Below are positions 3,515 to 31,252 of a stretch of DNA of 45,109 nt, piece after piece; positions within the stretch are counted from its first letter, which is position 1, and every line of letters starts with the position of its first letter. The position numbers were made by a program, and so were the translations under genes. The notes beneath the pieces are model-generated. The model did no database searches. It saw only the letters and a program-made list of their open reading frames with translations, and was not told the DNA's origin. Origin of the DNA: a bacterium (GTDB lineage: Bacteria; SAR324; XYD2-FULL-50-16). The stretch is taken from assembly GCA_018830885.1 (NCBI GenBank), contig JAHJRI010000028.1:1-45109 (forward strand), written 5' to 3'.

Positions 3515-4969
3515 CTAATCAAGCAAGCGCATGACCTTTTGAGGGATCTGATTGGCCTGTGCCAACATCGCCGCACTGGACTGCAAAATCAGATCATTCT
3601 TGGTGAACTCGGCCATCTCAGCCGCCATATCGGTATCCCGGATATTGGACTCGGCAGCGACCATATTCTCCTTGGCTATCTGCATGTTGGCGACATTAAT
3701 CTCCAGGGTATTGTTCTGGAATGCACCAAGCTCAGCCCGGACTTTAATTACATCATTGATCGCCTTGTCTATCAGGGTCATCGAATCCTGAGCCCCCTGG
3801 GACGTTGTCACATCCACATCATAAAGAGACTCAAAACCGCTCACATTCTCAACCCCTCTGGCCAGCGTGCCCGATGAAACGTTCTGCAGGGCTATTCTGA
3901 CCTTCTGACCTTGTCCCGGACCAATCTGGAAGGTCAATGCATTTTGGGTCACATTGACTTTCCCCACATTCAGTCCACCATCCCCTATCACCAGATTTGG
4001 ATCCTCAGTATGATAGCGAACGGACAATCCGTCGGTTTTCTTATTACCGCTGATACCGGTCATGGTTTCACCTTTACCAATGGTTGCTTCGCCATTGATG
4101 GTACCTCGCAGGTCTTTACCCCTGACCGCAGTCTGAAAAACACCACCCTTTTCCGACAACACACCCGCCGTACTGCTGGCTGCAGAGAACGTGTGCTCGC
4201 TACCGTACTGATTGTGTTCAATCTGTATGGCACCACTGTCGGTTTTCGAAATGGTAACATTCAAACCAGCCTTTTTCGCAGCTGCCGCGAAGTTCAGGAT
4301 CGCAGCATCGATTGTATCCGTGCTCTTCGTCACATATTGGGCTGTCTTTCCGCCCTCAGTCACAAACAACTGCTCATTGGCACTGACCATTTCCTGTGAC
4401 AACGGGGTTGATCCCAGCAATACTGCCTTGGTCGCCGTTCCAGTAACCACGACATCATAGCCTTCTTCCCCACTTGACTGGGTTTCCGTCATTGCGCCAA
4501 CATACTGCAAGCCGTCTCCAATTGCCAAACCAGACACCCCGTTCGAGCCATCCAGCAACTTCTTCTGCCCAAACTGGGTAAATTCAGCAATCCGATCAAT
4601 TGAGGCGACCATGTTCCTGATGGATGTCTGGTTGGCTGCCAGCATCACCGCATCGTTGGAACCTTCGTTGGCTGACTGAACAGCCAATTGCCTCATTGCG
4701 ACAAGGGTATTGTTAGCTTCCGCCAAAGCACCTTCTGCTGTCTGCACCATAGAAACTGTTGACTCCGAGTTACGAATTGCCTGGTCAATACTGGCAACTT
4801 GAGAACGCAACTGTTCCGAAGCCATTAAAGCGGCAGCTCCGTCTCCCGCAGAGTTAATCCTCAAACCGGAAGACAGCTTCTCAAGAGATTTAGAAACCCT
4901 CTCGTTGGCCTTCTCTAAATTTCTATGGGCATTCAAACTGGCGGTATTATGATTTATTCGCAAACTCAT
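3515..4969 (-). CDS. fliC: Flagellin (filament subunit)
   Basis: A 484 aa protein with both conserved flagellin ends. The N-terminal D0/D1 starts MSLRINHN and has LSSGLRINSAGDG and ANEGSNDA; the C-terminal D1/D0 has NIRDTDMAAEMAEF and ends MLAQANQIPQKVMRLLD. The central 165-390 region is variable and contains a GYDVVVTGTAT segment and a flagellin IN-like stretch. The protein is exported by the flagellar type III apparatus with FliS as chaperone. SD GGAG lies 8 nt before ATG. The gene lies downstream of a long structured leader (4970-5677), and no clear sigma-28 promoter was found directly upstream. fliS and fliD lie upstream in the same orientation. Confidence 0.97.
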   Translation of the reverse strand: MSLRINHNTASLNAHRNLEKANERVSKSLEKLSSGLRINSAGDGAAALMASEQLRSQVASIDQAIRNSESTVSMVQTAEGALAEANNTLVAMRQLAVQSANEGSNDAVMLAANQTSIRNMVASIDRIAEFTQFGQKKLLDGSNGVSGLAIGDGLQYVGAMTETQSSGEEGYDVVVTGTATKAVLLGSTPLSQEMVSANEQLFVTEGGKTAQYVTKSTDTIDAAILNFAAAAKKAGLNVTISKTDSGAIQIEHNQYGSEHTFSAASSTAGVLSEKGGVFQTAVRGKDLRGTINGEATIGKGETMTGISGNKKTDGLSVRYHTEDPNLVIGDGGLNVGKVNVTQNALTFQIGPGQGQKVRIALQNVSSGTLARGVENVSGFESLYDVDVTTSQGAQDSMTLIDKAINDVIKVRAELGAFQNNTLEINVANMQIAKENMVAAESNIRDTDMAAEMAEFTKNDLILQSSAAMLAQANQIPQKVMRLLD

Positions 4970-6773: not shown

Positions 6774-9700
6774 TTACAACTTGGCCAGTTCGCCGCTCAG
6801 GTATTGCTGCTCTGATTTCAGCTGCCCCAATTGACCTTCCATTTTTGCAAACTTGGCGGATAGTTTTTCTCTTTTCGAGGTGATACGTTCCTCAAGGGTT
6901 TTCAGCTCCTTGTTATAGTTCTCAAGCTGCTTTTCCACGTTTTTGGTATAGATATCCAACGCCCCTTTGTTATTTTCCATCACCTTGTCAATATACTCCA
7001 TCACCTTGGTCCCGACACCCTTGGTGAAGACCATATTGGCCTCACTGCCGGGTCCGACCTGGTTTGCTGACAGCGAAACATACAGTTTTAAGTCTTCAAA
7101 AGGAGAATCCGGCGGGCCTGTCAGGATCTGTCCACTGCCCTGCATGGCGACTCCCTTGATACTTCCCTGCACATCTGTTCCGATTTTCGACTCACCGTTC
7201 ATCAACGGATGGTTCAGTATGTTTTCGACATTTTCAACCCGCAACGAGACTGCAGATTTACTCCCGGTCACATTGGAGCGGATGGTCAATTTCCCGTCTT
7301 CCGATGTCACCACCACGTTCATCTTTCCCAGACTCTTATCATTGATGATTTTCCGCTGTAGATCCTTGGCAAGATCTTCCATCTTCATGGTACCGGTTTC
7401 CAGGATGATCTTGTCAGATTCCCTTCCGTTGACCGTGACATAGATCTCCCGGTTGTTCTCATCTATCGTTACAGGCCCCTGAGCCTGCCGGGTCGTATAA
7501 CTCCCCTGGGTAGCGGCAGCTGTAATATCAATATCATACCCATCTTTACCGCTGATTTGTGTTTTTTCCGAAGAACCGAGATAGATAATCCCACTGTTCT
7601 CCGATGTGCCATGACTCCGAAAGAGATTGGCCACTGTCGTCAGATTATCATTAATGGCATTCGTCAACTTCTCCTCATCAATGTCAATCATTCCTTCCTG
7701 GGTGATTTTCAACCCAATGGAGACCAACATGTTTCTGTCATTATCCAGTCCGATAATCGGGTCGATAAAAATGCTGTTGGCTTCCCTCTGAATCCTCGGC
7801 AGGTTCCGGTCTCCCTGCAGAGGAGCTGCTTCGTTGGTCTCCTTATCATATTTGGTCACATCCTTAAAAAAGAGCAGCATCTTGTTATAGGCATCTGCAA
7901 ATTCAGCAATACCCTCCAACGCCTTTTCGGTGTCTCCCCGGATACTGATTGTGACCGGCTTTTCATGGGTGGAGAGCAGATTCAGCTTGACCCCGTCGAT
8001 CACATCCTCCAGTGTATTCGTGGGATTGGTGATCAGCAGACCACCTCCCAGTTCCGTTGCTCCCAGTCGGATCTCAGCGTCCTGGGGCGGCTGAATAACC
8101 GGAGTAAAGGTCCGGAAGGTAAAACTGTCCGTTTCAAAAATACTCCCTTCACCCAGCACCAGGGATAATCCTGAATCAAATTCGATGGGTGTTCCCATCT
8201 GGTATGCATCACCACCTACCTTCAGTGTTCCAGAGTTACCATCGTCATCTTCCCAGCGCAGTTCCAGTTCCTTGGTAACCCCCACACTACCGCTTTTCAG
8301 CGCGGTAAACGTATAAACCTTGGGGTCGAAATCGGTATAGGTCCCGACAATCTGTTTCTGGGCGTTACTAACCCGTGCCCCGACTGGTTTCTTGCCAGCG
8401 GGAACACCAAACCCCTCCTCCTCCGTGGCAGTCGATATCCAGTTTGTGAGGTTGGTTATTGCTCCGCCCTCATGCCGGTCCTCATCATCAAGCCACCAGT
8501 AGTTTGCCGTTGACTCTGCCTGGTATTCAAACGTCGCATAGTCTCCATCATTCAAAAGACCCGGCTTCAGTTCCAACTCCAGCCCTTTTCCCAGGGAGAG
8601 CTTGGTCCCCGGCTCGTAGCCCTTGCCCACAAATGCGGTTCCCTTGATGCCATTTTCAGACTCATATTCGATCTTCAGATCTTCTGCCTGACCAATCTGT
8701 CCGCTCCCGACAACTTTCAGGGTAAAAACATCATCTTCCGTCCCATCGAACTGACCGGTGATAATCGGTCCCCCTTCCGTGGCCTGGCGCTTCCAGGATG
8801 TGGGTTGTGTGATCTTTGGCGCCCGTTCCTCATCGCTCTTCCACCAGTACAGTTCCGAATCCTGGTTTTTTGCTCTGGATGTAAACACATCGTTCACGAT
8901 GATCTCGCCTTCACTGAGAATCAGGCTGATGCCATCCACAATTTCCAGGGGCTCTCCCGGGGTATAGTTAAATGACCCGAGATCCAGATAGCCGTATCGC
9001 CCGGTGTTGTCTTCCCAGCGCATGCGAAGGTTTTCGCTGACACCAATGATACCGGTATTGACAGCGGTAAAAGTCAGTTCCAGGGGGTCTTCCCCCGTAT
9101 AGTCGCCAATCAGCTCCGGTATGGCCGTCGATGCCCCGGTGCCTGTCGGAACAGGCTCTCTTTGCTCTCCTCGGACAACACCTTTCCATTTACCCGGCTG
9201 CAGGTAGTATGGATCAAAAGTCGGGGCTTCCCCTTCTCCCTTGAGATAGGAGACCACCTTGATTTCACCTTCCCGGCCAGTTTTCTTGCTGGTCAACACG
9301 ACCTGGAATGGCTTTTCCTTGTTGCCCGTCTTAATCACATTTGCAGAGACGTTCGATTCCAGTGCATTAATGGCGTCAACGTAACCCTGCAGGCTATCAT
9401 TGGTTTCATCGATCACAATCTTTTCGGTCTGCTCATCCCCGACGGTGATCACGACTTCGCCACGTCCGATCTGATCCTCTTTGGCAGCAAATCCCTGGGA
9501 CGCAATCTGGTGATTCAGTGCCAGTTTATCGACAACCAGAGTATGTTTGCCGGGCTTTGCCCCGGATGTGGCGATCGCCTCGACAACTTCCGGATTGCTG
9601 GAACTGACGATTTTCCCTTCCCACAGTGTTTTTTTAGACAGTTTGTCGGCGACTCCCTTCACAGAATCCAGATAGACCTTGGTCTGCTTCCAGGCATCCA

Positions 9701-9848
9701 ACTCCAGTTTTTTTGCTTCCTTCCGTTGTTCAACAGGCTCGATCTTTTTTCGCTCTGCAGCGATCATCTGCTCCACGATACCCTTGGTATCCATACCGGA
9801 AGCAAGGCCTGTTATCACATTTGGATTGGACGTTATTTCACCTGCCAT
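6774..9848 (-). CDS. fliD: Flagellar filament cap protein FliD (hook-associated protein 2), enlarged
   Basis: An N-terminal FliD domain (VITGLASGMDTKGIVEQMIA at about residue 9) and a C-terminal FliD coiled coil (VEKQLENYNKELKTLEERI) ending QQYLSGELAKL. The cap at the filament tip promotes flagellin polymerisation. I start at the ATG at 9848 because AAGGA lies 5 nt upstream; the frame is open to 9911 but without an SD. At 1024 aa it is about twice the usual 450-500. The excess includes three repeats of roughly 90-130 aa (about residues 247-579), each with a G-x-[YF]-[TD] start, a [GS]-x-[IV]-G turn, an [RE]-[WY]-E segment and a closing D-x-[FY] strand. A flagellin IN-like region lies further on (about 750-880). 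Confidence 0.95.
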   Translation of the reverse strand: MAGEITSNPNVITGLASGMDTKGIVEQMIAAERKKIEPVEQRKEAKKLELDAWKQTKVYLDSVKGVADKLSKKTLWEGKIVSSSNPEVVEAIATSGAKPGKHTLVVDKLALNHQIASQGFAAKEDQIGRGEVVITVGDEQTEKIVIDETNDSLQGYVDAINALESNVSANVIKTGNKEKPFQVVLTSKKTGREGEIKVVSYLKGEGEAPTFDPYYLQPGKWKGVVRGEQREPVPTGTGASTAIPELIGDYTGEDPLELTFTAVNTGIIGVSENLRMRWEDNTGRYGYLDLGSFNYTPGEPLEIVDGISLILSEGEIIVNDVFTSRAKNQDSELYWWKSDEERAPKITQPTSWKRQATEGGPIITGQFDGTEDDVFTLKVVGSGQIGQAEDLKIEYESENGIKGTAFVGKGYEPGTKLSLGKGLELELKPGLLNDGDYATFEYQAESTANYWWLDDEDRHEGGAITNLTNWISTATEEEGFGVPAGKKPVGARVSNAQKQIVGTYTDFDPKVYTFTALKSGSVGVTKELELRWEDDDGNSGTLKVGGDAYQMGTPIEFDSGLSLVLGEGSIFETDSFTFRTFTPVIQPPQDAEIRLGATELGGGLLITNPTNTLEDVIDGVKLNLLSTHEKPVTISIRGDTEKALEGIAEFADAYNKMLLFFKDVTKYDKETNEAAPLQGDRNLPRIQREANSIFIDPIIGLDNDRNMLVSIGLKITQEGMIDIDEEKLTNAINDNLTTVANLFRSHGTSENSGIIYLGSSEKTQISGKDGYDIDITAAATQGSYTTRQAQGPVTIDENNREIYVTVNGRESDKIILETGTMKMEDLAKDLQRKIINDKSLGKMNVVVTSEDGKLTIRSNVTGSKSAVSLRVENVENILNHPLMNGESKIGTDVQGSIKGVAMQGSGQILTGPPDSPFEDLKLYVSLSANQVGPGSEANMVFTKGVGTKVMEYIDKVMENNKGALDIYTKNVEKQLENYNKELKTLEERITSKREKLSAKFAKMEGQLGQLKSEQQYLSGELAKL

Positions 9849-9872
9849 TCTATCCTTGAATAAAGGGCTCAT

Positions 9873-9900
9873 TCGGCAAATTTTTCCACTCTTTTGCCGA
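9873..9900. repeat. Inverted repeat in the fliD leader
   Basis: Perfect 8 bp arms TCGGCAAA (9873-9880) and TTTGCCGA (9893-9900) with a 12 nt spacer, 25 nt before the fliD start. A third copy of TTTGCCGA is at 9989-9996. It might be an operator or an mRNA hairpin affecting fliD translation. Confidence 0.4.
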
Positions 9901-10095
9901 TGATAGGGCAATATTCCACATCAATCCGGCCAGAGGGGTTACAGGTACAGATCGTCCTTTTCAGATGACGACACCACCAACGACCCTGTTTGCCGAAGAA
10001 TACCGCTGTATTGATACTTCTATCCAAGAATAGGATTACAATTATTATTCCATGTTCCCCATTTCTCTAAATTTACTCCGTTCTTCATTATTTCC

Positions 10096-15852: not shown

Positions 15853-16411
15853 CAATTGTCTGCCTGCTTCTCTAATGGCAATAAGAAATCTTTACATTCC
15901 TGCATATGCAAATTATATTAATTTTTTAAAATATCATTTCCATCTGTCTTATGCAATGTCCTTTTTCCAAAAAGCGCTCTGAACAGCGTACCGCCACTCT
16001 ATTGGCCATTATCTTTATTTTATTAAGGATACCGTTATTTTCAGATCAAAACCGGTGATATCCAGATCCCCGATAAAGTCCTGAACCGGTCCTGTGAATG
16101 GCGTACAGGACCGACTTTCGTATTCAATGCAACAGGGTCCCCGTATTGAAGCGCTAACCCTGTCATTATCGCCATAGATGGTTCCGTTTCAGGTTCGGAC
16201 AGAAGTCGAGCGGTTCGGTCAGAACAACAGAAAGTCCTTTTTTTTATTGAATTATTATTTTACAATTCACACTTATCAGCTGTGATTAACGTTGTCGCTT
16301 TTCGATTTTCAGACCTGGAAAGCTGAATATGAGTCAATCATAACGAAATTTCAGGTGTTTGCATACGGACAGCTTTTAATACCGGAATCCAACTCATGTC
16401 AAGAGGGAACC
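15853..16411. other. Divergent intergenic region between rimP and the lipoprotein cluster
   Basis: This gap of about 560 bp has no convincing gene. It contains a perfect 9 bp stem-loop at 16087-16113 (CGGTCCTGT/ACAGGACCG, 9 nt loop), a 7 bp pairing ACAGGGT/ACCCTGT across about 16130-16165, and a 13 bp direct repeat with one mismatch at 16192-16204 and 16212-16224 (GGTTCGGACAGAA / GGTTCGGTCAGAA). A TATAAT box for rimP may lie at 15912-15917 on minus, but its -35 is poor. Promoters of both operons should be here. Confidence 0.5.
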
Positions 16412-17779
16412 ATGAAAAGAGGAAATAGAATCATTGCCATCATCGTCTCATTACTTCTGGTTTCGTGCAGTTTCGGTTCGAAACCGGAACCCATTACCGA
16501 AGCAAACTTCCTGACACTGGCAGATGTGACAGGCAGGGGAACCCTCAGAGAAGACTCACCGGATGTGAGGGTCATTAATGTCAAGTCCAAGGCATTTATC
16601 AAGGTGAATGATATTCGGGCAGCCAAGCAGAAAGCAATGGAAAATGCCGCTGTGACAGCGGTGGAAACCATGGTCCGGGAACTGATGTCTGCCGAAGACT
16701 ATAATCGGCGGTATGAGGAAATTGAGCGGTATTTTTCCAAGAACATTGATAAATATATTGTTGATCGTCAGGTTAACGGTGAAAAAAAGATCTATCTGGA
16801 CCAGTTTTATGGCGTCTCCGCTTCGTTTAAGGTCAACCGCCAGGAGGTTCTGGTCGCGCTGCAGAAAGACCTGAGAATTATTGATGCCAGCGGCAGCGCT
16901 CTGGTAACGGTCGTGACCAGTCGCAAGGACCTGGATCTGTCGTCCATTGGATTTCGTTTCTCTGATATTGAAGATTCCCTGATGAATCAGATTCAAACCG
17001 ATCTCAATCAGCGGGGACTCAAAGCACTGGACTACAGAAACGCAGTCGCCTCTATGCAGTCGGATCCGAAGATGAAGGATGCCTTATCAAAACTATCCAA
17101 ACAGCAGTTTATGGCGATGGTGGCCGGCAGCAAGGCTGGTGACACAATCCTGGACAAACAGTTGCAGGATGCTGAAGCGTTCTATTCAACCGGCCTGACG
17201 ATGTTGAAACAAATTGCCAAGATCGTGGTGGAAGTGAATATCATGTCTGTCAGCAAAACCGGTGACAGCATGGTACTGAACCTTAATGTCACAGCCAAAA
17301 ATATCTCGGTGGGATCCGGGGGTGCATTTGCCAATACCATTGTACAGGTCGCCAGACGCGCTGGTCCCAACACGGATGATTCGGCCATGTTGACCGGTCT
17401 GATCAAGGATGCGTACGAGGATATGAACCGATCCTTTATTCCCCAGATCATTAAGGAGATGTCAAGCATTGATGTGGGCGGTGACAAGCTGGTTCGGTAT
17501 GAACTGGTCATGAAAGGATATACCAGCTCCGATTTCCGGACGATCAGAAAGCTGATCGAAAATGCACAGACGGATGGATTTCGCTTTATCAATTTCGATA
17601 ATACCCTCAAGGACGCCAAACCATCCATCAATCAGATATTTGTGCGCTATGCCGGCAAAACATCACGCCTGTCGGATACCGTTCTTGATTTACTGGATGG
17701 CAGCAAACTGTCCGCATCAGAACCGATTATTGCACCTGGTCTGACCGACCTGGTTTTTGAGAAAGTTATGCCGAAATAG
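16412..17779 (+). CDS. Outer-membrane-type lipoprotein, FlgT/LPP20-like, first gene of envelope cluster
   Basis: A 455 aa protein. The signal peptide MKRGNRIIAIIVSLLLVSC gives a lipobox with Cys19 followed by Ser, consistent with outer-membrane sorting. The frame is open to 16292, but the ATG at 16412 has GAGGG 4 nt upstream and opens the signal peptide. After it, RAAKQKAMENAAVTAVETMV followed by YIVDRQVNGEKKIYLDQFYGVSASFKV resembles the N-terminal alpha/beta module of FlgT- and LPP20-type envelope lipoproteins (inference by pattern). The C-terminal part (SDFRTIRKLIE...NQIFVRYAGKTSRLSD) looks like a second copy of a small alpha/beta domain. No enzyme motif seen. It leads a same-strand run of five exported proteins. 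Confidence 0.8.
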   Translation: MKRGNRIIAIIVSLLLVSCSFGSKPEPITEANFLTLADVTGRGTLREDSPDVRVINVKSKAFIKVNDIRAAKQKAMENAAVTAVETMVRELMSAEDYNRRYEEIERYFSKNIDKYIVDRQVNGEKKIYLDQFYGVSASFKVNRQEVLVALQKDLRIIDASGSALVTVVTSRKDLDLSSIGFRFSDIEDSLMNQIQTDLNQRGLKALDYRNAVASMQSDPKMKDALSKLSKQQFMAMVAGSKAGDTILDKQLQDAEAFYSTGLTMLKQIAKIVVEVNIMSVSKTGDSMVLNLNVTAKNISVGSGGAFANTIVQVARRAGPNTDDSAMLTGLIKDAYEDMNRSFIPQIIKEMSSIDVGGDKLVRYELVMKGYTSSDFRTIRKLIENAQTDGFRFINFDNTLKDAKPSINQIFVRYAGKTSRLSDTVLDLLDGSKLSASEPIIAPGLTDLVFEKVMPK

Positions 17780-17830
17780 GCTGGATTGCTCCATTTTGAC
17801 CACTGAACTCACGAAGAGACCGAGGCCGCT

Positions 17831-18700
17831 ATGAAAATCAAGTATATGAAAAAAATCCTGATCCTGATTCTCGCATCACTGGTCGTCATCACCGGATGTT
17901 CCAGTATCGACAAAGCAAAATCCCTGTATCAGAAAGGGCAGACCGAAAAAGCACTGAAGATGGCCCAGGGTCTGCTGGATGATGATGAGGACCAAAAAAC
18001 CCGTCTGTCAGCCATCGCACTGATTGGGGAAATCGGTGGCGACAGGGCCGGCGAAATTCTGATGCCCGTTCTGGATGACCCGGATATGCCTGTTAAAAAC
18101 GCCGCCATCAAAACCATCGGGAAAATAGGGTATGCCCCTGCTTCTGAAAAACTGCTGAGCATTGCTCTGTCTTCAAAAGGGGACACTTTTGAGGCAGCGG
18201 CCGGCGCTATCCGGGATATTGGCTCTCCCGCCATCGACCTGTTGGTAAAAGGGTTGACCCTGGCTGATGATGCTGCTGAAAAGGAACGCTACAAAAAGCT
18301 GATGCTGGCCGTTGGACCCAGTGTTACGTCGAGTATCACCAAAAATCTGCGAGGAAAAACCTATTTTGAAAATCGGACCAATTTTGAACTGCTGGTTGCC
18401 TTTAAAAGCCCTGAAGTGGCTGAATGGCTTTTGAAGGAGATTGGCAACGATGAAGTTGCAGATAATATCATGGAAGGGTTGGTAAAACTGGGCAGTCGTG
18501 CTGTTTCCCCTGTGACTGAGAAGTTGAGGGATTTGCCACCTGGAGAGGAAAACACGACCGTGCGGATTCGACTGATTGTTGTTCTCGGTCAACTGAAAGC
18601 AAAAGAGGCTGTGGGGTTACTTGAAAATCTGACCCGGGATAACAGTGATAGAGTCCGAGATGCAGCTGATTTGGCCTTGAGGAGAATCAGAGGCTTCTAG
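17831..18700 (+). CDS. HEAT-repeat lipoprotein
   Basis: A 289 aa protein. Lipobox VVITGC with Cys23 followed by Ser. The ATG at 17831 is preferred since GAGG precedes it by 5 nt; the Met five codons later has no SD. After a short helical segment that may be TPR-like (SLYQKGQTEKALKMAQGLL) the rest is HEAT/armadillo-type helical repeats: RLSAIALIGEIGGDRAGEIL, VKNAAIKTIGKIGYAPASEKL, DTFEAAAGAIRDIGSPAIDLL, and a last one near the end (VRDAADLALRRI). Such solenoids bind other proteins, so it is probably a scaffold in the same envelope complex (inference). It starts 51 nt after the previous stop. Confidence 0.85.
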   Translation: MKIKYMKKILILILASLVVITGCSSIDKAKSLYQKGQTEKALKMAQGLLDDDEDQKTRLSAIALIGEIGGDRAGEILMPVLDDPDMPVKNAAIKTIGKIGYAPASEKLLSIALSSKGDTFEAAAGAIRDIGSPAIDLLVKGLTLADDAAEKERYKKLMLAVGPSVTSSITKNLRGKTYFENRTNFELLVAFKSPEVAEWLLKEIGNDEVADNIMEGLVKLGSRAVSPVTEKLRDLPPGEENTTVRIRLIVVLGQLKAKEAVGLLENLTRDNSDRVRDAADLALRRIRGF

Positions 18701-18744
18701 ACACCTCCTGATGGCAATATCGTTAAAGAGAAGAGGAGAGCGCA

Positions 18745-19992
18745 ATGAGATTCAAAAACGGATACCGGGCAATCGGCCTGCTGCTTTTGTCGGTTTTTTC
18801 CATGTTCGGGGCCCTGCAGGCAGCTCAGTTTCAAGTCCAGAGACCTGGAAAGCTCAACATCCCGCGGAACATAAAGAAGGTATTCATCGATCCGGGGAGT
18901 ATTAACGACGCTGCGGACAAACTCGGTTTGAAATCTGAGGTCATCCTCACGCTGAAACGCCGACTGAATGAAATGGGACGCTTCGAGTTGATTGTCGGTC
19001 CACCTCGGGATATCGATCCAAACCGGGAAACCATCGCGATCATCCAAGGGGATGTGATCAGTGGCGGTGAGATTGATCAGGGACAGTTAACGGAGAAAGC
19101 GGAATGCCGCGGGGGCGTTTCAGGTCTGGTTGGCGCAGGGACCGCTGGAAGCACTTCCAACCAGGGAATCACCTTCAGTCGCAGGGGGATGTTATGCAAA
19201 CTCCCGACGATGGAGTCCAGACTTGTGGAATCCGGACTCTCCGCCGGTCTCAGTCTGCTCGGGGTTCAGGAGTTCCCCCGCTATGACGAGGTCATCCGTG
19301 TATACAAATTCAAGAACCTGTCTCTCTTTGCACAAGTCAATCTGAGTTTTACCCAGATCGGCACTCAGCGGGAAACCCTGACCATTCGCTCTGATGCGGC
19401 CAGTTTCAGCCGGCATGCAGTCGCACCTGGTTCCTATCACAACGTCAGGGAGTCCGGCGACAATGCCCCGCTGATCTGGCTCTGGTTCCGTATCACACCC
19501 ATTGCACCGGTTATTATCCGGGAAATCGGGGTGGTCAGAGCAACCAATCCCGATTCATTTCCCGCTCAATGGTATGACATCGTAGCACCAGATGTTCGGG
19601 ATATTGATCCGAATGAGAAGAAAGCCGTTTTGTCAAAACTGGTCAACAAATCCCTGGATCAATTTATTCAGACAATATCCCCCTATCAGGTTGTCATTGA
19701 GACAGAGCTGGCCTCCGGCGGAAACAGTGCCGCCCAGAAAATGATTGCCGCGGGCCGCTATCTGGAAGCCAGGGAAATTCTCGGCAGGCCCTCGAACGCC
19801 GATGACCTTTACAATCTCGGTCTGACCTACGAAGCAGGGGCCGTGACCGTTGAAGATTATGAAGATGCACTGCGGTTCTACAGCGACGCGTTGGCCAAAC
19901 AACCGAATTCCAGGTTATTTGCCCAGGGGATCGGCCGTATGGAACTTCAGTTGCGGGTATACAGAAACGTCAGCAGGAAGGTGATCAATTGA
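18745..19992 (+). CDS. Secreted CsgG-like/TPR protein, cluster paralogue A
   Basis: A 415 aa protein. Signal peptide with an AxA-type end (GALQAAQ) and no lipobox, so it is probably periplasmic or released rather than lipidated. SD GGAG lies 6 nt before ATG. The mature start FQVQRPGKLNIPRNIKKVFI parallels the next two proteins. The middle has small beta-rich segments, including IAIIQGDVISGG and a Gly-rich GLVGAGTAGSTSN. The C-terminal 90 residues are TPR-like (AAQKMIAAGRYLEAREIL, DDLYNLGLTYEA, DALRFYSDALAKQPNSRLFAQGIGRME). The layout recalls CsgG/LpoB-type proteins; the match is by pattern, so treat the function as unknown. It begins 44 nt after the HEAT protein. Confidence 0.8.
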   Translation: MRFKNGYRAIGLLLLSVFSMFGALQAAQFQVQRPGKLNIPRNIKKVFIDPGSINDAADKLGLKSEVILTLKRRLNEMGRFELIVGPPRDIDPNRETIAIIQGDVISGGEIDQGQLTEKAECRGGVSGLVGAGTAGSTSNQGITFSRRGMLCKLPTMESRLVESGLSAGLSLLGVQEFPRYDEVIRVYKFKNLSLFAQVNLSFTQIGTQRETLTIRSDAASFSRHAVAPGSYHNVRESGDNAPLIWLWFRITPIAPVIIREIGVVRATNPDSFPAQWYDIVAPDVRDIDPNEKKAVLSKLVNKSLDQFIQTISPYQVVIETELASGGNSAAQKMIAAGRYLEAREILGRPSNADDLYNLGLTYEAGAVTVEDYEDALRFYSDALAKQPNSRLFAQGIGRMELQLRVYRNVSRKVIN

Positions 19993-20071
19993 ACCCATCC
20001 CCTTTCTGCAGATTGCAGGCACCATCCATGTCCTGCACGACGGAATGAATCAAGGAAAACGGAGTGATACT

Positions 20072-21292
20072 ATGTTCTGGCAGAGAAAAGGGAAACCCTC
20101 CATTCAGAAAGGGTCAGGGACAGGAGATGTCAACCTCGGGCGAAAATGTCTGAAACCTGCCCTGATCATCGGCCTGCTGCTCATCCTGATCTCAGGCTGC
20201 GCCCCCAAGGTTCGCTTGACAGTTACCCAGCCCGCAGAGGTCGACACAACCAGAATCAGAAAGGTTGCGATCGGCAGTTTTGAAGTCGTATCCGTCAACC
20301 AGGTGTTCAAGGTGGAGCGAAACGGACAGTGGCAGATAAAAAATGTCGGTCTGAACCAGGAGCAGCAGCAAGCTCTCAGCAATCAGATCCGGGCCAGAGT
20401 CGTCAACCTCCTCTCGACCACACCTTATTTTCAGTTGGTTTATACGGACGAATTCAGAAAGCTGGAAAATGACGAGGCCTTGCAGAAACTTATCGCGGCA
20501 GGCGGTTACCGGACATCCGAGATCGATGCCGTGATCAACGGCCGCATCTGGCTGGATGTGACCCGGATCGACAGCTCGGAAATCGACAAGGTAGAACTGG
20601 AGTTCGTCGAGGGGGGACGGGAAAATTCATTTAACTATACTTTACAGACGCTGGTCTACTGGCCGTTTAAAAGCATCAGCGGAACACTGGCCCTTGAGAT
20701 GAAACTGACACGATTGAATCCAAATGAAATTGTCTCTGTCAGCTTCGACACCCGCAAAGCCAGTTATAAACTGGGCGGAAAGCCTGCCAGCCTGAAGGAA
20801 CAGGTTGCAGCCGGGTTTCAAGCCGCCGGTTCAACGCTGGCTGGCGCTCAAACAGACCAGAAGGAATCGTCTGCCATTGAAGAGTCGAGTCTTGTTCTGC
20901 CAAACTTTAACCAGCTGGTCGCGGACCTGTCCGAATCGATCGCCGCCCAGTTCGCGCGCCGAATTGCTGTAACCCAGATGGATGTTTCTTACCCGCTGGC
21001 CACGGGAGGAAATCCCACGGCCAGGCTTCTGATCGAAGCTGGGGCCTATGAAAAGGCGATCGAGATCCTGAACAACACGTTGAACAGGGCCAGGGAAAAG
21101 AACCCGGACGATATTTACAACCTGGGGCTCTGTTATGAAGCCACCGGCGATTTCGGTATCGCACTGGTCACATACAACGAAGCCACCGCCATCGACCCGA
21201 AGAACCTGATATATGCCCAGGGAATCGGTCGTATCGAACGCTTAAAAAGAGAGAAACGCCGGGTAGCAGATCAACTGGTCCGGAGAAATTAG
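20072..21292 (+). CDS. CsgG-like/TPR lipoprotein, cluster paralogue B
   Basis: A 406 aa protein. Start at the ATG at 20072: GGAG lies 7 nt upstream, while the ATG nine codons earlier has none at proper distance. A long n-region precedes the hydrophobic segment and lipobox LISGC (Cys43, then Ala). The mature start VRLTVTQPAEVDTTRIRKVAIGSFEVV matches the CsgG/LpoB-style strand seen in its two neighbours. The middle holds INGRIWLDVTRIDSSEID and SGTLALEMKLTRLNPNEI. The C-terminus is TPR-like (PTARLLIEAGAYEKAIEIL, DDIYNLGLCYEATGDF, YAQGIGRIERL). The YAQGIGR motif is shared almost exactly with paralogue A. Confidence 0.82.
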   Translation: MFWQRKGKPSIQKGSGTGDVNLGRKCLKPALIIGLLLILISGCAPKVRLTVTQPAEVDTTRIRKVAIGSFEVVSVNQVFKVERNGQWQIKNVGLNQEQQQALSNQIRARVVNLLSTTPYFQLVYTDEFRKLENDEALQKLIAAGGYRTSEIDAVINGRIWLDVTRIDSSEIDKVELEFVEGGRENSFNYTLQTLVYWPFKSISGTLALEMKLTRLNPNEIVSVSFDTRKASYKLGGKPASLKEQVAAGFQAAGSTLAGAQTDQKESSAIEESSLVLPNFNQLVADLSESIAAQFARRIAVTQMDVSYPLATGGNPTARLLIEAGAYEKAIEILNNTLNRAREKNPDDIYNLGLCYEATGDFGIALVTYNEATAIDPKNLIYAQGIGRIERLKREKRRVADQLVRRN

Positions 21293-21418
21293 ATGCATTT
21301 CTGAAACACCCATTTTTAGAAGTGGTTGATCAAGGGTGGTCCTGGTTTCAACGTGAGGAGGATCACCTAGAAAATAAACATCTCTGGACAACAAATCGGT
21401 AAATTGAAGGAGTTTCCA

Positions 21419-22612
21419 ATGAAATTTTCATCCTTGTTCCCTTCCAGAAACCTACTGGTCACCGTTTTATTTTTTCTGGGAGCCTGTGCACCTGAAACCA
21501 CATTTTATGTCAGGCGGCCAGCACAACTGCCAATAAAGAACATCGACAACATTGCCATCGGGAACTTTGCCGACGCAACCGGGGAGGAAATCCCACTCCC
21601 GGCAGGCCTTCAGCCTAGCCGGTTAAAGTCTCGGGGAGACCTGCAACCCGAAATAACGCGATTTACAGCCAACAAAAAGACGGCCGAATTCATCAAGTCC
21701 ATGGTGACTGCCGGTCTGGCAACTTCCGGACAGTATCGGCTGGTTGATCTCGGTCCCGGTAATGCCAGCAGTGGCGGCGTCCTGCCAGATCCCGACCGCA
21801 CCGCCATTGTTCAGGCAAAGGTCAAGTACTATGAGTTCGATGTCGAGGATGCCGAGAAGGTGTTCTATCTTCTTCTCGCAACAAAAGGGGGACTGAACCT
21901 CAGGGATCAGGCGATCCTGATGGCCACCCGGCAGGGGATCATTGCCGCAGCGGAACGGGACCAGAAAGGATTTCAGGTGAGTACCCCCTATATTGAAAAA
22001 GTTGCCGCACTGGAAGTGGAGTTTGATATGATCCGGCAATCCAATGGGGAAAAAATAGTTGAAACCCAGCGCTATCGGGCATACGAAACCCGGAAATGGG
22101 GGGGTAATCCGGACACCTCCCATTTACCCCCATCACTGAAAGAGATCATTATTGTCGAGTATCAGAAGAACGAATCACTGGCTGACACGCTCAAAACCAG
22201 CGTTGCTGACCTCAAGCTGGCGTTGCTGGACCCCGAGGTGTACCTGGCCCGAGGCGGTAAACTCAGAAGCGACAAGTCGGTCGTTAAAAATCCGCTTGAG
22301 ATTCAAACAGACCTTGCCAGCCATGTTGTTGATCGCTATCTGCGGCAGATCAGCCAATATACAGAAGAGACGACACTGAAGATCGCATCGGGAGACCCCA
22401 TTGCCGTCAATTATTTAAAAGGTAATGCCTACGAGAAAGCGATCAATCGTCTGGAAAATATTCCCCGCTCGGAGGAGGACGCCTTCAATCTGGCACTGGC
22501 CTATGAGTCAATCGCGGAAAATAACCAGGCGGCAAAATATTATCAGGAAGCGCTGAACAAAAACCCGGGTAATAAAACATACCAGGAGGCCCTGAAAAGG
22601 GTTCGGGAATAA
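21419..22612 (+). CDS. CsgG-like/TPR lipoprotein, cluster paralogue C
   Basis: A 397 aa protein. Start at the ATG at 21419 with GAAGGAG 6 nt before it. Lipobox FFLGAC (Cys23, then Ala). The mature region begins TTFYVRRPAQLPIKNIDNIAIGNF, again the same opening as paralogues A and B. It has a beta-rich middle (VQAKVKYYEFDVEDAEKVFY; LEVEFDMIRQSNGEKIVETQRYRAY) and a TPR-like end (AVNYLKGNAYEKAINRL, EDAFNLALAYESIAEN, AAKYYQEALNKNPGNKTY). The next gene starts 8 nt after its stop. Likely a component of the same envelope assembly as A and B; function unknown. Confidence 0.82.
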   Translation: MKFSSLFPSRNLLVTVLFFLGACAPETTFYVRRPAQLPIKNIDNIAIGNFADATGEEIPLPAGLQPSRLKSRGDLQPEITRFTANKKTAEFIKSMVTAGLATSGQYRLVDLGPGNASSGGVLPDPDRTAIVQAKVKYYEFDVEDAEKVFYLLLATKGGLNLRDQAILMATRQGIIAAAERDQKGFQVSTPYIEKVAALEVEFDMIRQSNGEKIVETQRYRAYETRKWGGNPDTSHLPPSLKEIIIVEYQKNESLADTLKTSVADLKLALLDPEVYLARGGKLRSDKSVVKNPLEIQTDLASHVVDRYLRQISQYTEETTLKIASGDPIAVNYLKGNAYEKAINRLENIPRSEEDAFNLALAYESIAENNQAAKYYQEALNKNPGNKTYQEALKRVRE

Positions 22613-22620
22613 CAGGAACA

Positions 22621-23265
22621 ATGGGAATAAAACCGTATCAGACCTATCTGTTCGATGCAGATGGCACCTTACTGAACACTGCCGAACTGATTTTTCAGAC
22701 CTTTTTGTACATATGTGAAAAATATGGCGGTTTTACGATTGAACGATCCCGGGTTACAGGCGATATCGGGCAACCCCTTGTGCGGCAGATCCAGCTTTAT
22801 CTGGGCCAGCTGCCGGAAGCTGAATTGACGCCCATCCTGGCAGACTACAGAGATTATCAGCTGGGAATTTACCAGGACTATCTTTCCGTTTTCCCGGGAG
22901 TTGAGGAGACCCTGCGGCAACTGAAGAAACGGGGAAAGGGGCTGGCCATTGTGACGTCACGAAAACTGGAAACCACAGAGATCTATCTCAAAACCGGCAG
23001 ACTTTACGACTTTTTCGATGCGATCATCACGCCCGAATCCACCCTGGATCACAAACCCCACCCGGCGCCCGCACTCAAGGCACTGGAGATGATCAACGGA
23101 AACAGCCGGGATGCATTGTTTGTCGGCGATGCCCATTTCGATATTGAATGCGGCCAGCAGGCGGGGATGGATACCGCACTGGTTTCCTGGAGCCTGAACA
23201 AACCGGATTCGATCCAACCGCCCCCCACTTATATTATTCAAGAGATGACCGATCTGCTGAACTGA
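22621..23265 (+). CDS. HAD-family phosphatase (phosphoglycolate phosphatase/PpaX-like)
   Basis: A 214 aa cytoplasmic protein. Motif I FDADGTLLNT, helical cap, motif II IVTSRK, motif III DHKPHPAPAL (Lys) and motif IV FVGDAHFDIECGQQAG: a complete subfamily IA phosphatase. Typical substrates of such enzymes are phosphoglycolate, pyrophosphate or sugar phosphates; none can be chosen here. SD AGGA lies 3 nt before ATG. It starts 8 nt after the paralogue C lipoprotein, so it is transcribed with that cluster though probably not part of its envelope function. Confidence 0.88.
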   Translation: MGIKPYQTYLFDADGTLLNTAELIFQTFLYICEKYGGFTIERSRVTGDIGQPLVRQIQLYLGQLPEAELTPILADYRDYQLGIYQDYLSVFPGVEETLRQLKKRGKGLAIVTSRKLETTEIYLKTGRLYDFFDAIITPESTLDHKPHPAPALKALEMINGNSRDALFVGDAHFDIECGQQAGMDTALVSWSLNKPDSIQPPPTYIIQEMTDLLN

Positions 23266-28223: not shown

Positions 28224-29942
28224 TTAAAGCCGAATAGAAAAAATAACGGTAACTAAAACAACACCTAACCAGATGGTCTCATGCAGGCAATAAAAAACCA
28301 TCCTGGTTGCTTGACCACTACTTCCCATCCGAATATCAAGAAACGCGACATTCCTTCGGCTGCCGATGGTTGCCTGGTTGATCTCTCCCTTGGGAAAATG
28401 AAGCCTGATCGAAAAACCGCATTCCGGCGCTTCGCAGGTTTGCCAGCCTGATATTTCTCTGCGCCTGATATATCCAATTTTCCGGGGTGTGACAACCTCG
28501 GATCCGCGAGAACTGGATTCTGGAGATACCAGTCTGGCAGTTAACAGGACCAGTTCACCACAGATTTTCACCCAATCGCCCAGTTGATCAACGCTTTTTT
28601 TAAAGCTGCTGTTTTGCGGTTCGTCATCCCAACCGATATCGCCCCTTTCTGGCAAAGGCAGTTGCTCACAGGCAAGCATCTGCAGCACCCGCTCATTGTC
28701 CAGGATTCTCGCATAGTAGAACGACAAAGCCACTTTTTTGGAGCGCTTGATCTGGACGAGGAGCCGCTCCTTCTCCCTCACGGAGAGACCACTAAATCCC
28801 GTTTCATGGGCAATTTTACACAGAAGCCGTCGGGTTTGAGAATCAATAACGGTCTTTTCCAGGCTGGCTGCGTTTACTTCACGGATCAGACGGGAGATAT
28901 AGGAGGTCCACTTCTGCGGTTGATCCCTTTTCAGATCCGTCTCCATATGCTGCTGATCTTTCTGGGCCAGATAAGACTGCCAGGAGATATAGTTAATAAT
29001 GGCGCTGCTGCGGCCCATTTTTTCCTTCAAACATTTAATGGGCCAGAGCGGTTTGTCCCAATCCAGAAAGGTTCCTGTTTCTGCAAAGATTTTTGTCCTG
29101 TTTTGGTGCAGATAATAATTACCGTCTGTTCCATAAAAATTCTTCCATAATTCCGGCTCGGTAAAAACATACCAGAAACCGACTGATGCATCCGGATTCA
29201 GCGGCCGGGCCTTGACAGGGAGGAATGAATTCCCACTGGTCCTTTTTAAATAATGCGTATCACGATACTCAGCGCGGTATTTGTCAAAGGCCTGCATGGA
29301 AAAGTCCAATGACATATCCTTAAAAAAGCCCATCACTGTGCATGGATTGTGATTTTTTAGCTGGTGAGCCTCAATTCGGTGTTCCACCTGCTTTTCCAAT
29401 TCACAAATCCAGAGTTGAGCCTCCAAATAGCCCCTGAAATAGAGCTCCTGTACCAGATTCTGTCTGAGAATGTGTGGGACGCTTTTCATTGCACCGAGGA
29501 AATCATCCAGTATTTTACCACCCTCTTTTCGCAACTGTTTCATCAGGAAGGTATTGTTGTTCTTCCACTGATCAACCAGTTTGGGCGGGATATCATAGTT
29601 GATGGTAAACAGGTTCCGTCTCAGATTCCTGATCCTGGACCAGGTAACAGGTTTAACAAAGGGGAGTGACGGATTGATGCGGGCTTCAAGCAGCGGTCTC
29701 ACAAATCGTTGTTCGAATACAAACATTTCAAGGTATATTAACTCCTTCCGTTCCCGTTCCACATATCTTGCGATTTTGTATATCTCCTGATCAATAATAA
29801 ACCGGGATTCCAGATATGGGTTTCTGTTCCGTCGAGCCTGATTTTCAAAAATCGCCCTTCGGACCTCAAGTGCCATAATCTCCTGCAATCGTCTGATATC
29901 ATCATCATCCTTAACTCCAATCAGCTTCTTACCTTCAGACAT
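28224..29942 (-). CDS. Hypothetical protein, 572 aa, possible C-terminal membrane anchor
   Basis: I do not recognise this protein. It starts MSEGKKLIGVKDDDD and is rich in Arg, Lys, Glu and aromatic residues. The first 250 residues look largely helical (EIMALEVRRAIFENQARRN; IYKIARYVERERKELIYLEM; LVQELYFRGYLEAQLWICEL). The second half has a Trp/Tyr-rich segment and SVREKERLLVQIKRSKKVAL. The last 20 residues are hydrophobic (a WLGVVLVTVIF stretch) and could be a tail anchor. There is no catalytic motif, signal peptide or repeat. The SD is weak (GGTGTGGA). It is divergent from the GNAT-like/methyltransferase pair. Length and coding look support a real gene. Confidence 0.75.
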   Translation of the reverse strand: MSEGKKLIGVKDDDDIRRLQEIMALEVRRAIFENQARRNRNPYLESRFIIDQEIYKIARYVERERKELIYLEMFVFEQRFVRPLLEARINPSLPFVKPVTWSRIRNLRRNLFTINYDIPPKLVDQWKNNNTFLMKQLRKEGGKILDDFLGAMKSVPHILRQNLVQELYFRGYLEAQLWICELEKQVEHRIEAHQLKNHNPCTVMGFFKDMSLDFSMQAFDKYRAEYRDTHYLKRTSGNSFLPVKARPLNPDASVGFWYVFTEPELWKNFYGTDGNYYLHQNRTKIFAETGTFLDWDKPLWPIKCLKEKMGRSSAIINYISWQSYLAQKDQQHMETDLKRDQPQKWTSYISRLIREVNAASLEKTVIDSQTRRLLCKIAHETGFSGLSVREKERLLVQIKRSKKVALSFYYARILDNERVLQMLACEQLPLPERGDIGWDDEPQNSSFKKSVDQLGDWVKICGELVLLTARLVSPESSSRGSEVVTPRKIGYIRRREISGWQTCEAPECGFSIRLHFPKGEINQATIGSRRNVAFLDIRMGSSGQATRMVFYCLHETIWLGVVLVTVIFSIRL

Positions 29943-30337: not shown

Positions 30338-31252
30338 ATGAAAAACATACCCATTGTCCGCCGACTAACTGCAGAGGAAATGTCGGAGTCCATCATCCAG
30401 GAAACCACGGATCTGTATATGGAGGTATTCAACTTCCACCACTATCTCTTGTTTTCGAGCACATTAGAGATTCTGGGAGTCAGAGATGTTTTCAGGTCGA
30501 CCCGCTATCCCGACCTGAAAACACAGCATGCCATCAAGCAGATGCCGGTTCATGCGGAGACAGGCGAACAGGCCATTTTCTGGCATCATCCCGAAACCAC
30601 ATACCGAATATTAAAAAAAAGACTCATGAGGGATAGCACCAATTCGACATTTCTCATCGACCCGCAAACTGAGGAAATCATCGGAGCCATCATCGGAGAC
30701 AAAACATCACTGTGCGATCTGTTTGATGACAACGGTTGGACGAATCCAACCCTTTATGCCGGTATTGAAGCCAAACAACATTGCCGCAGTCCCGAAAGTC
30801 TGCTGCAGCAGATCAACGATACACTAAAAAATTTAAAGCCAAACAGAGCATCCAGTCAGATCCTGAGGCACATAACACAATTTCGACCTGGGGAGAAAGT
30901 ATTGTCACCCAACTGTATCGCTCTGAAAAAAAAGGCAAGGCATAATGACAGCCTGAGTCTGCTTTTTTCTGGATTCCTGGCATCTCTACCAAACGAATCA
31001 AAAACAATCCCTTTCGTTTTTGAAGCGACGTGGCAATCCGGTCTGACAAAAATCTGTCTGCGCTCCGGCATGATTCTGATAAATGGAACATTGCGGGATC
31101 CTGATGCTGAAAAAAAAGACGGGGATTCGGTCATTATCGTCGGGGATTATGATTGCTTCTGCAAGGCTGGCCAGATTCTCAACCGCCTTAATTCTATCAA
31201 CATGAAAAATCAATTTACCGGTCGAAGCCCGTTTAGACCTAAATTTCAATAG
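30338..31252 (+). CDS. Hypothetical protein, weakly GNAT-like, paired with a methyltransferase
   Basis: A 304 aa protein, not clearly recognised. It begins MKNIPIVRRLTAEEMSES. Around residue 105 the segment FLIDPQTEEIIGAIIGDKTS looks like the central beta-strands of a GNAT acyltransferase, but the pyrophosphate-binding R/Q-x-x-G-x-G/A loop is not evident. The C-terminal half has FVFEATWQSGLTKICLRSG, beta-rich and unassigned. No signal peptide or membrane segment. No SD is seen before the ATG. Its stop is 39 nt before the methyltransferase start, so the two are likely one operon. Confidence 0.65.
   Translation: MKNIPIVRRLTAEEMSESIIQETTDLYMEVFNFHHYLLFSSTLEILGVRDVFRSTRYPDLKTQHAIKQMPVHAETGEQAIFWHHPETTYRILKKRLMRDSTNSTFLIDPQTEEIIGAIIGDKTSLCDLFDDNGWTNPTLYAGIEAKQHCRSPESLLQQINDTLKNLKPNRASSQILRHITQFRPGEKVLSPNCIALKKKARHNDSLSLLFSGFLASLPNESKTIPFVFEATWQSGLTKICLRSGMILINGTLRDPDAEKKDGDSVIIVGDYDCFCKAGQILNRLNSINMKNQFTGRSPFRPKFQ

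Follow-up and report, generated by a model that had tools for sequence, protein, structure and literature searches.

Five consecutive genes of a SAR324 bacterium belong to a conserved envelope system whose composition is apparently undescribed. The genes, P1–P5, occupy positions 16412–22612 on the plus strand of contig JAHJRI010000028.1 (assembly GCA_018830885.1), whose whole 45,109 nt stretch we call the window. P1 and P2 encode a FlgT-like and a HEAT-repeat lipoprotein, and P3, P4 and P5 encode three paralogues, each joining a CsgG-superfamily core to a tetratricopeptide repeat (TPR) tail. Three distinct CsgG-TPR subunits with a FlgT-like partner recur in two phyla, and SAR324 bears a second such trio; we therefore regard the cluster as a real conserved system, apparently new in composition and assembled from components of known superfamilies. 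With slightly less than even confidence, we read P1–P5 as a hetero-oligomeric ring or scaffold of lipoproteins at the outer membrane, on its periplasmic side.

Five exported proteins and their predicted folds

Every gene in the cluster encodes an exported protein. P1 (16412..17779, 455 amino acids (aa)), P2 (17831..18700, 289 aa), P3 (18745..19992, 415 aa), P4 (20045..21292, 415 aa from its first ATG) and P5 (21419..22612, 397 aa) are separated by gaps of 51, 44, 52 and 126 nt, in agreement with an earlier reading of the sequence (the original prediction) that described five same-strand exported-protein genes spaced by 44–126 nt. The lipoboxes that it placed at Cys19, Cys23 and Cys23 are present in P1 (LVSC19), P2 (ITGC23) and P5 (LGAC23); a fourth, placed at Cys43 of P4, has that number only when translation starts at the internal Met10 and is ISGC52 from the first ATG. 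P3 in the window carries a plain Sec signal without a lipobox, as do its two closest relatives, while most P3 orthologues have one. By a simple rule, 1.7% of the other open reading frames (ORFs) of at least 180 aa in the fetched loci bear a lipobox signal, and from this background the chance of at least four lipoproteins among five neighbors is roughly 4e-7. Judged by the Ser or Ala at position +2, the lipoproteins would reside at the outer membrane.

P3, P4 and P5 share a CsgG-superfamily core followed by a TPR tail. None of the three matched CsgG (PF03783) at an expectation value (E) of 1 or below, and the CsgG matches in the window's genome lie only elsewhere; the link runs through a Calditrichota protein (L091), a CsgG-positive TPR lipoprotein (3e-17) that bridges CsgG and the P4 family in sequence (hhalign 98.4% to the P4 family). 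An AlphaFold2 model of P4 built from 32 sequences (predicted local distance difference test (pLDDT) 82, predicted template modeling (TM) score 0.70) contains a core with long strands at 162–189 and 196–223 and a TPR tail, and Foldseek matched it to HpaA, FlgT, CsgG (2e-4) and PelC. Together, hhalign by way of the bridge protein and Foldseek indicate that the P4 core is homologous to CsgG. TPR tails were found in all three proteins, a sequence search of solved structures with P3–P5 returned TPR matches only, and P3 has two invariant cysteines (121 and 151). The predicted CsgG-type opening with a TPR-like tail thus held for the trio, and no protein of the cluster matched a catalytic family, as had also been anticipated.

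P1 resembles FlgT in its predicted fold. Its AlphaFold2 model (pLDDT 81, 31-sequence alignment) appears to have the three domains of FlgT, and its best PDB matches by Foldseek were FlgT in the LPHT ring (8z5n, E 1.3e-7) and FlgT itself (3w1e, 7e-7), with 430 columns aligned at TM-scores of only 0.22–0.28; GNA1162 was among the fold matches (2e-4). P1 did not match PF16548 (FlgT_N) at E ≤ 1, and a sequence search of solved structures returned nothing, but its profile finds PF16548 FlgT proteins at ~40 bits. The original assignment to FlgT/LPP20 modules therefore survives for FlgT, by fold and profile and not by Pfam directly, and fails for LPP20, since no LPP20-type/FlgP family model among Pfam and NCBIfam matched at E ≤ 1. 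In a tree, a split with support 100 set 22 FlgT-type proteins apart from P1 and the Planctomycetota counterpart, long branches being a caveat, which puts P1 outside the FlgT clade; the window's genome and most relatives encode a canonical FlgT separately. P2 is the HEAT solenoid that had been predicted (PF13646, 7e-19).

Two modules in SAR324 and a counterpart in Planctomycetota

A GTDB genome scan with the P4 family found close relatives only in SAR324-cluster records, so we place the host in SAR324, within a family (f1) that includes Lambdaproteobacteria RIFOXYD2 genomes. This rules out the Desulfobacterota host implied earlier. P1 occurs in about 32 SAR324 genomes, and relatives of P5 in 30 of 58 genomes sampled; families f1 and f3 carry P1 and the trio, and family f4 lacks them.

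Gene order divides the cluster into two modules. Module A, the pair P1–P2, rarely splits: in almost every SAR324 locus read, P2 lies directly 3′ of P1, and in genus g10 (L128) it was undetected there. Module B, the trio P3–P4–P5, is likewise rarely broken up and runs contiguously in about 20 SAR324 loci. All five genes are contiguous in four genomes of one SAR324 family (G000, G004, G006 and G008), and in G013 they adjoin, interrupted between P2 and P3 by a FecR-domain gene (L037:8518-9195). Among the 41 f1 and f3 genomes, P1 and the trio tend to occur together: both are present in 27, the trio alone in 2, P1 alone in 5, and neither in 7 (one-sided Fisher p 0.001, with no correction for phylogeny or for gaps in metagenome-assembled genomes (MAGs)). 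We rejected a single indivisible operon, since the modules separate. Conservation of all five together, as first proposed, thus stands for contiguity in one SAR324 family and, as the trio with a P1-like gene, for a second phylum, and gives way to two separable modules otherwise. Just 5′ of the trio, G003 encodes a fourth, CsgG-positive TPR lipoprotein (L046:12005-13015).

SAR324 also bears a second trio, c12-Q1-Q2, colinear with P3–P4–P5. Profile comparison paired c12 with P3 (96.6%, others below 20), Q1 with P4 (99.9%) and Q2 with P5 (99.7%), and c12 has no TPR tail. We found this trio at L053:8702-11709, L054:7209-10104, L055:8838-11556 and L056:1439-4097, beside P1–P2 in some SAR324: at L053 and L054 it adjoins the pair, an arrangement like that of P3–P4–P5 in the window. 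Its colinearity and its position therefore lend independent support to distinct subunits and to a FlgT-like pair that works with a trio.

Planctomycetota carry a matching cassette. At L088, L173, L174, L175 and partly L181, three CsgG-TPR lipoprotein genes are followed by one for a FlgT-like lipoprotein, which overturned our provisional view of the cluster as confined to SAR324. A tree of 82 sequences matched the planctomycete genes one to one with the SAR324 subunits (support 100 for P4, 83 for P3 and 77–95 for the P5 group), so the order P3–P4–P5 is the same in both phyla; a score-based matching of the L088 genes (P0006 to P5, P0007 to P3) was reversed by this tree and by gene order. Reciprocal profiles of the planctomycete FlgT-like protein and P1 rank all members above all ~1000 shuffles, and hhalign aligned the two over 402 columns (98.9%). 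P1 resembles true FlgT at similar scores, which makes score alone insufficient for orthology; the tree split, the lipobox and the gene position support the planctomycete gene as the counterpart of P1. P2 was not seen outside SAR324 and is no part of the cross-phylum core. The trio occurs in only about 5 of 294 sampled Planctomycetota, so rare retention or transfer is possible, and a broad sample of the domain held it in no further phylum, just single CsgG-TPR genes.

Two other genes flank the planctomycete cassette. Directly 5′ lies a gene for an exported protein of ~1400–1570 aa (L175:10870-15588, L176:903-5132, L174:10228-14565, L088:1-478). Its C terminus holds a Trypsin_2 domain, as checked in L175 and L176, and its N terminus looks FlgT/CsgG-like by eye. 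After the FlgT-like gene, several genomes encode a small (~150-aa) lipoprotein without a Pfam match (L088:5129-5587). On the SAR324 side, P1–P2 of family f3 is divergent from genes that by eye encode a lipoprotein-sorting-like exported protein and a SurA/PpiC-like foldase (L127:7002-8925, L053:15474-17334).

The window itself places the cluster behind a 556 nt intergenic region (15856..16411, plus strand) that separates P1 from the divergent rimP-nusA-infB genes. Transcription likely starts at a promoter-like site, TTTACA-17-TATATT at 15891–15919, a consensus match only. A hairpin with a 10-bp stem (CGGTCCTGTGAATGGCGTACAGGACCG) and no T-run lies at 16087–16113, also 5′ of P1. A sixth gene (22621..23265, plus strand), for a HAD-family phosphatase, begins 8 nt after P5 and is probably co-transcribed with P1–P5 here; it is not conserved beside the cluster in relatives. 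Two ORFs farther downstream, of 572 aa (28227–29942, minus strand) and 304 aa (30338–31249, plus strand), have no Pfam match at 1e-5.

A candidate outer-membrane ring and its rivals

The lipoprotein ring or scaffold that we favor would divide labor among the five proteins, which presumably bind one another. P3, P4 and P5 would be distinct subunits whose membrane-anchored CsgG/FlgT/PelC-type cores pack into a ring or arc, and their C-terminal TPR pairs would point to the periplasm and hold a partner. P1 would be the recurrent partner that joins or seats the ring, and P2 a SAR324-specific adaptor of P1. Homologues suggest the ring itself. CsgG acts in an outer-membrane ring. So does PelC (PMC12141448), and FlgO, FlgP and FlgT make up the Vibrio H-ring (PMC6375700), in which FlgT has the place that P1 might take. 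A broader form of this proposal, possible but doubtful, is an ancient, undescribed machine of the outer membrane, drawn from the CsgG/FlgT ring superfamily, in which the CsgG-TPR trio builds a heteromeric ring together with a FlgT-like lipoprotein, present in SAR324 and some Planctomycetota, duplicated as the alternative SAR324 trio and serving a client that is neither flagellum nor curli.

Several observations weigh against a ring or scaffold of all five proteins. Not every protein with the CsgG/TolB-N fold forms a ring, and Foldseek TM-scores are low (0.2–0.3 of the query), which leaves E-values and domain order to carry the fold links and limits the structure matches of P1 and P4 to the superfamily level. 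Beyond the contiguous loci, modules A and B lie on different contigs and are separate in most SAR324 genera, and genus g10 splits P3 from P4–P5. G007 (98% complete) has P1–P2 without the trio, and G012 (93% complete) the trio without P1. The genes around the cluster share no common functional theme. Of the multi-lipoprotein complex in the original prediction, what is supported is a conserved genetic unit of outer-membrane-type lipoproteins with no named match, but its five members are two modules, one of which includes a protein found in SAR324 only.

A specialized accessory ring of the flagellar basal body, with P1 as a second FlgT-like protein and P3–P5 replacing FlgO/FlgP around the L-ring, is unlikely, even with the Vibrio H-ring of FlgO, FlgP and FlgT as precedent (PMC6375700). 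The fold match to FlgT extends along all of P1, and FlhA is present in every cassette genome of fair completeness tested; with FlhA in 60% of sampled Planctomycetota, six of six would arise by chance at ~0.05, and those relatives are not independent. The order fliC-fliD-rbfA-infB-nusA-rimP beside P1–P2 is kept across several f1 genomes, which we give little weight. However, flagellated SAR324 without the cassette exist (family f4, G015, G023, G027 and G042), and nearly all SAR324 are flagellated, as are all cassette genomes in which this could be judged. P1 falls outside the FlgT clade in genomes that mostly have a canonical FlgT besides, and no flagellar operon was seen to contain the cassette, with translation genes standing between fliC/fliD and P1–P2. 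In the window, the flagellin and FliD genes are at 3518–4969 and 6777–9911, both on the minus strand. We withdrew the argument that some genomes have the cassette without flagella: FlgI is missing from G058, G595 and G002, probably through a MAG gap because all three have FlhA.

The remaining alternatives assign the proteins to export, cell-wall synthesis or envelope assembly. That P3–P5 form a CsgG-like channel for protein or polysaccharide, with the TPR tails as periplasmic guides, is quite unlikely: their CsgG-superfamily homology, the long strands of the P4 model and the pairing of PelC with the TPR protein PelB (PMC12141448) speak for it, but those strands are no different in amphipathicity from soluble core strands, a comparison uninformative about a putative transmembrane beta barrel, and the annotated loci show no recurrent substrate gene (curlin-like repeats, exopolysaccharide synthesis) in the neighborhood. 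Activation or positioning of peptidoglycan synthases, as by LpoB (TolB-N-like) and LpoP (TPR), would suit chains that fuse both Lpo folds, and the CsgG-TPR bridge protein weakly recalls LpoB (PF13036, E 0.021). LpoP, however, has ~127 disordered residues (20–146) ahead of its globular domain, and LpoB is built the same way, whereas in the P4 model the core follows the lipid Cys by 3 residues, and the P5 sequence suggests a similar arrangement. With that long flexible linker missing from P4 and P5, and with no penicillin-binding protein or cell-wall gene seen to recur nearby, an Lpo-like role is highly improbable; of the three roles that the original prediction offered (secretion, surface assembly and control of cell-wall synthesis), the missing linker weakens the last. 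Equally hard to credit, and if anything more so, is a quality-control or assembly hub that aids outer-membrane protein or lipoprotein biogenesis with foldases and proteases; the ~1400-aa exported protein with a trypsin-like C terminus ahead of the Planctomycetota copies and the SurA/PpiC-like gene divergent from P1–P2 in f3 point that way, but the partners differ between the two phyla and family f1 has none.

Relation to known systems

The known rings with CsgG-like and FlgT-like lipoproteins surround a pore or an axle and consist of a single kind of protein or a small number of kinds. Three conserved CsgG-TPR subunits with a FlgT-like partner, in an order kept across two phyla, would, if the ring reading is true, mean that the superfamily has given rise to a further envelope machine, in marine bacteria that are abundant and uncultured, and they define a four-gene core (P1, P3, P4 and P5) available for testing. 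Against Pfam and NCBIfam, P1–P5 matched no member of a described complex beyond generic HEAT and TPR, and no account of a comparable cluster came up in the open literature searched; the view that no named system has this composition is upheld.

The cluster shares parts with several known systems and coincides with none. Neisseria encodes three adjacent outer-membrane lipoproteins that include CsgG (CsgG, DUF4810 and GNA1162), yet we found no gene-by-gene match, and each of P3–P5 bears its own core and TPR. LpoB and LpoP are likewise outer-membrane lipoproteins, TolB-N-like or TPR, but P3–P5 hold both folds in one chain, with no disordered linker and no link to a penicillin-binding protein. PelC is a CsgG-fold lipoprotein ring with a TPR scaffold; there a different protein, the barrel PelB, carries the TPR, whereas P1–P5 come without barrel or polysaccharide genes. 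The CsgG curli channel (PF03783) has a CsgG/TolB-N-type core and a lipoprotein anchor shortly before it, features shared with the cluster; P3–P5 differ in escaping the Pfam model, in bearing a TPR tail as well, in coming as three paralogues in one operon and in having neither curlin nor CsgE/F genes. The closest named-family relatives of P3–P5 are the single-gene CsgG-TPR lipoproteins of Calditrichota (L091) and several Planctomycetota, which have the same architecture but stand alone and form a clade apart from the trio (support 100). The Vibrio H-ring likewise combines a FlgT fold, to which P1 aligns along its length, with lipoproteins in an outer-membrane ring; here, though, P1 is a lipoprotein that branches apart from the FlgT clade, FlgO/FlgP give way to three CsgG-like subunits with TPR tails, and the cluster lies outside flagellar operons, in genomes with a canonical FlgT elsewhere.

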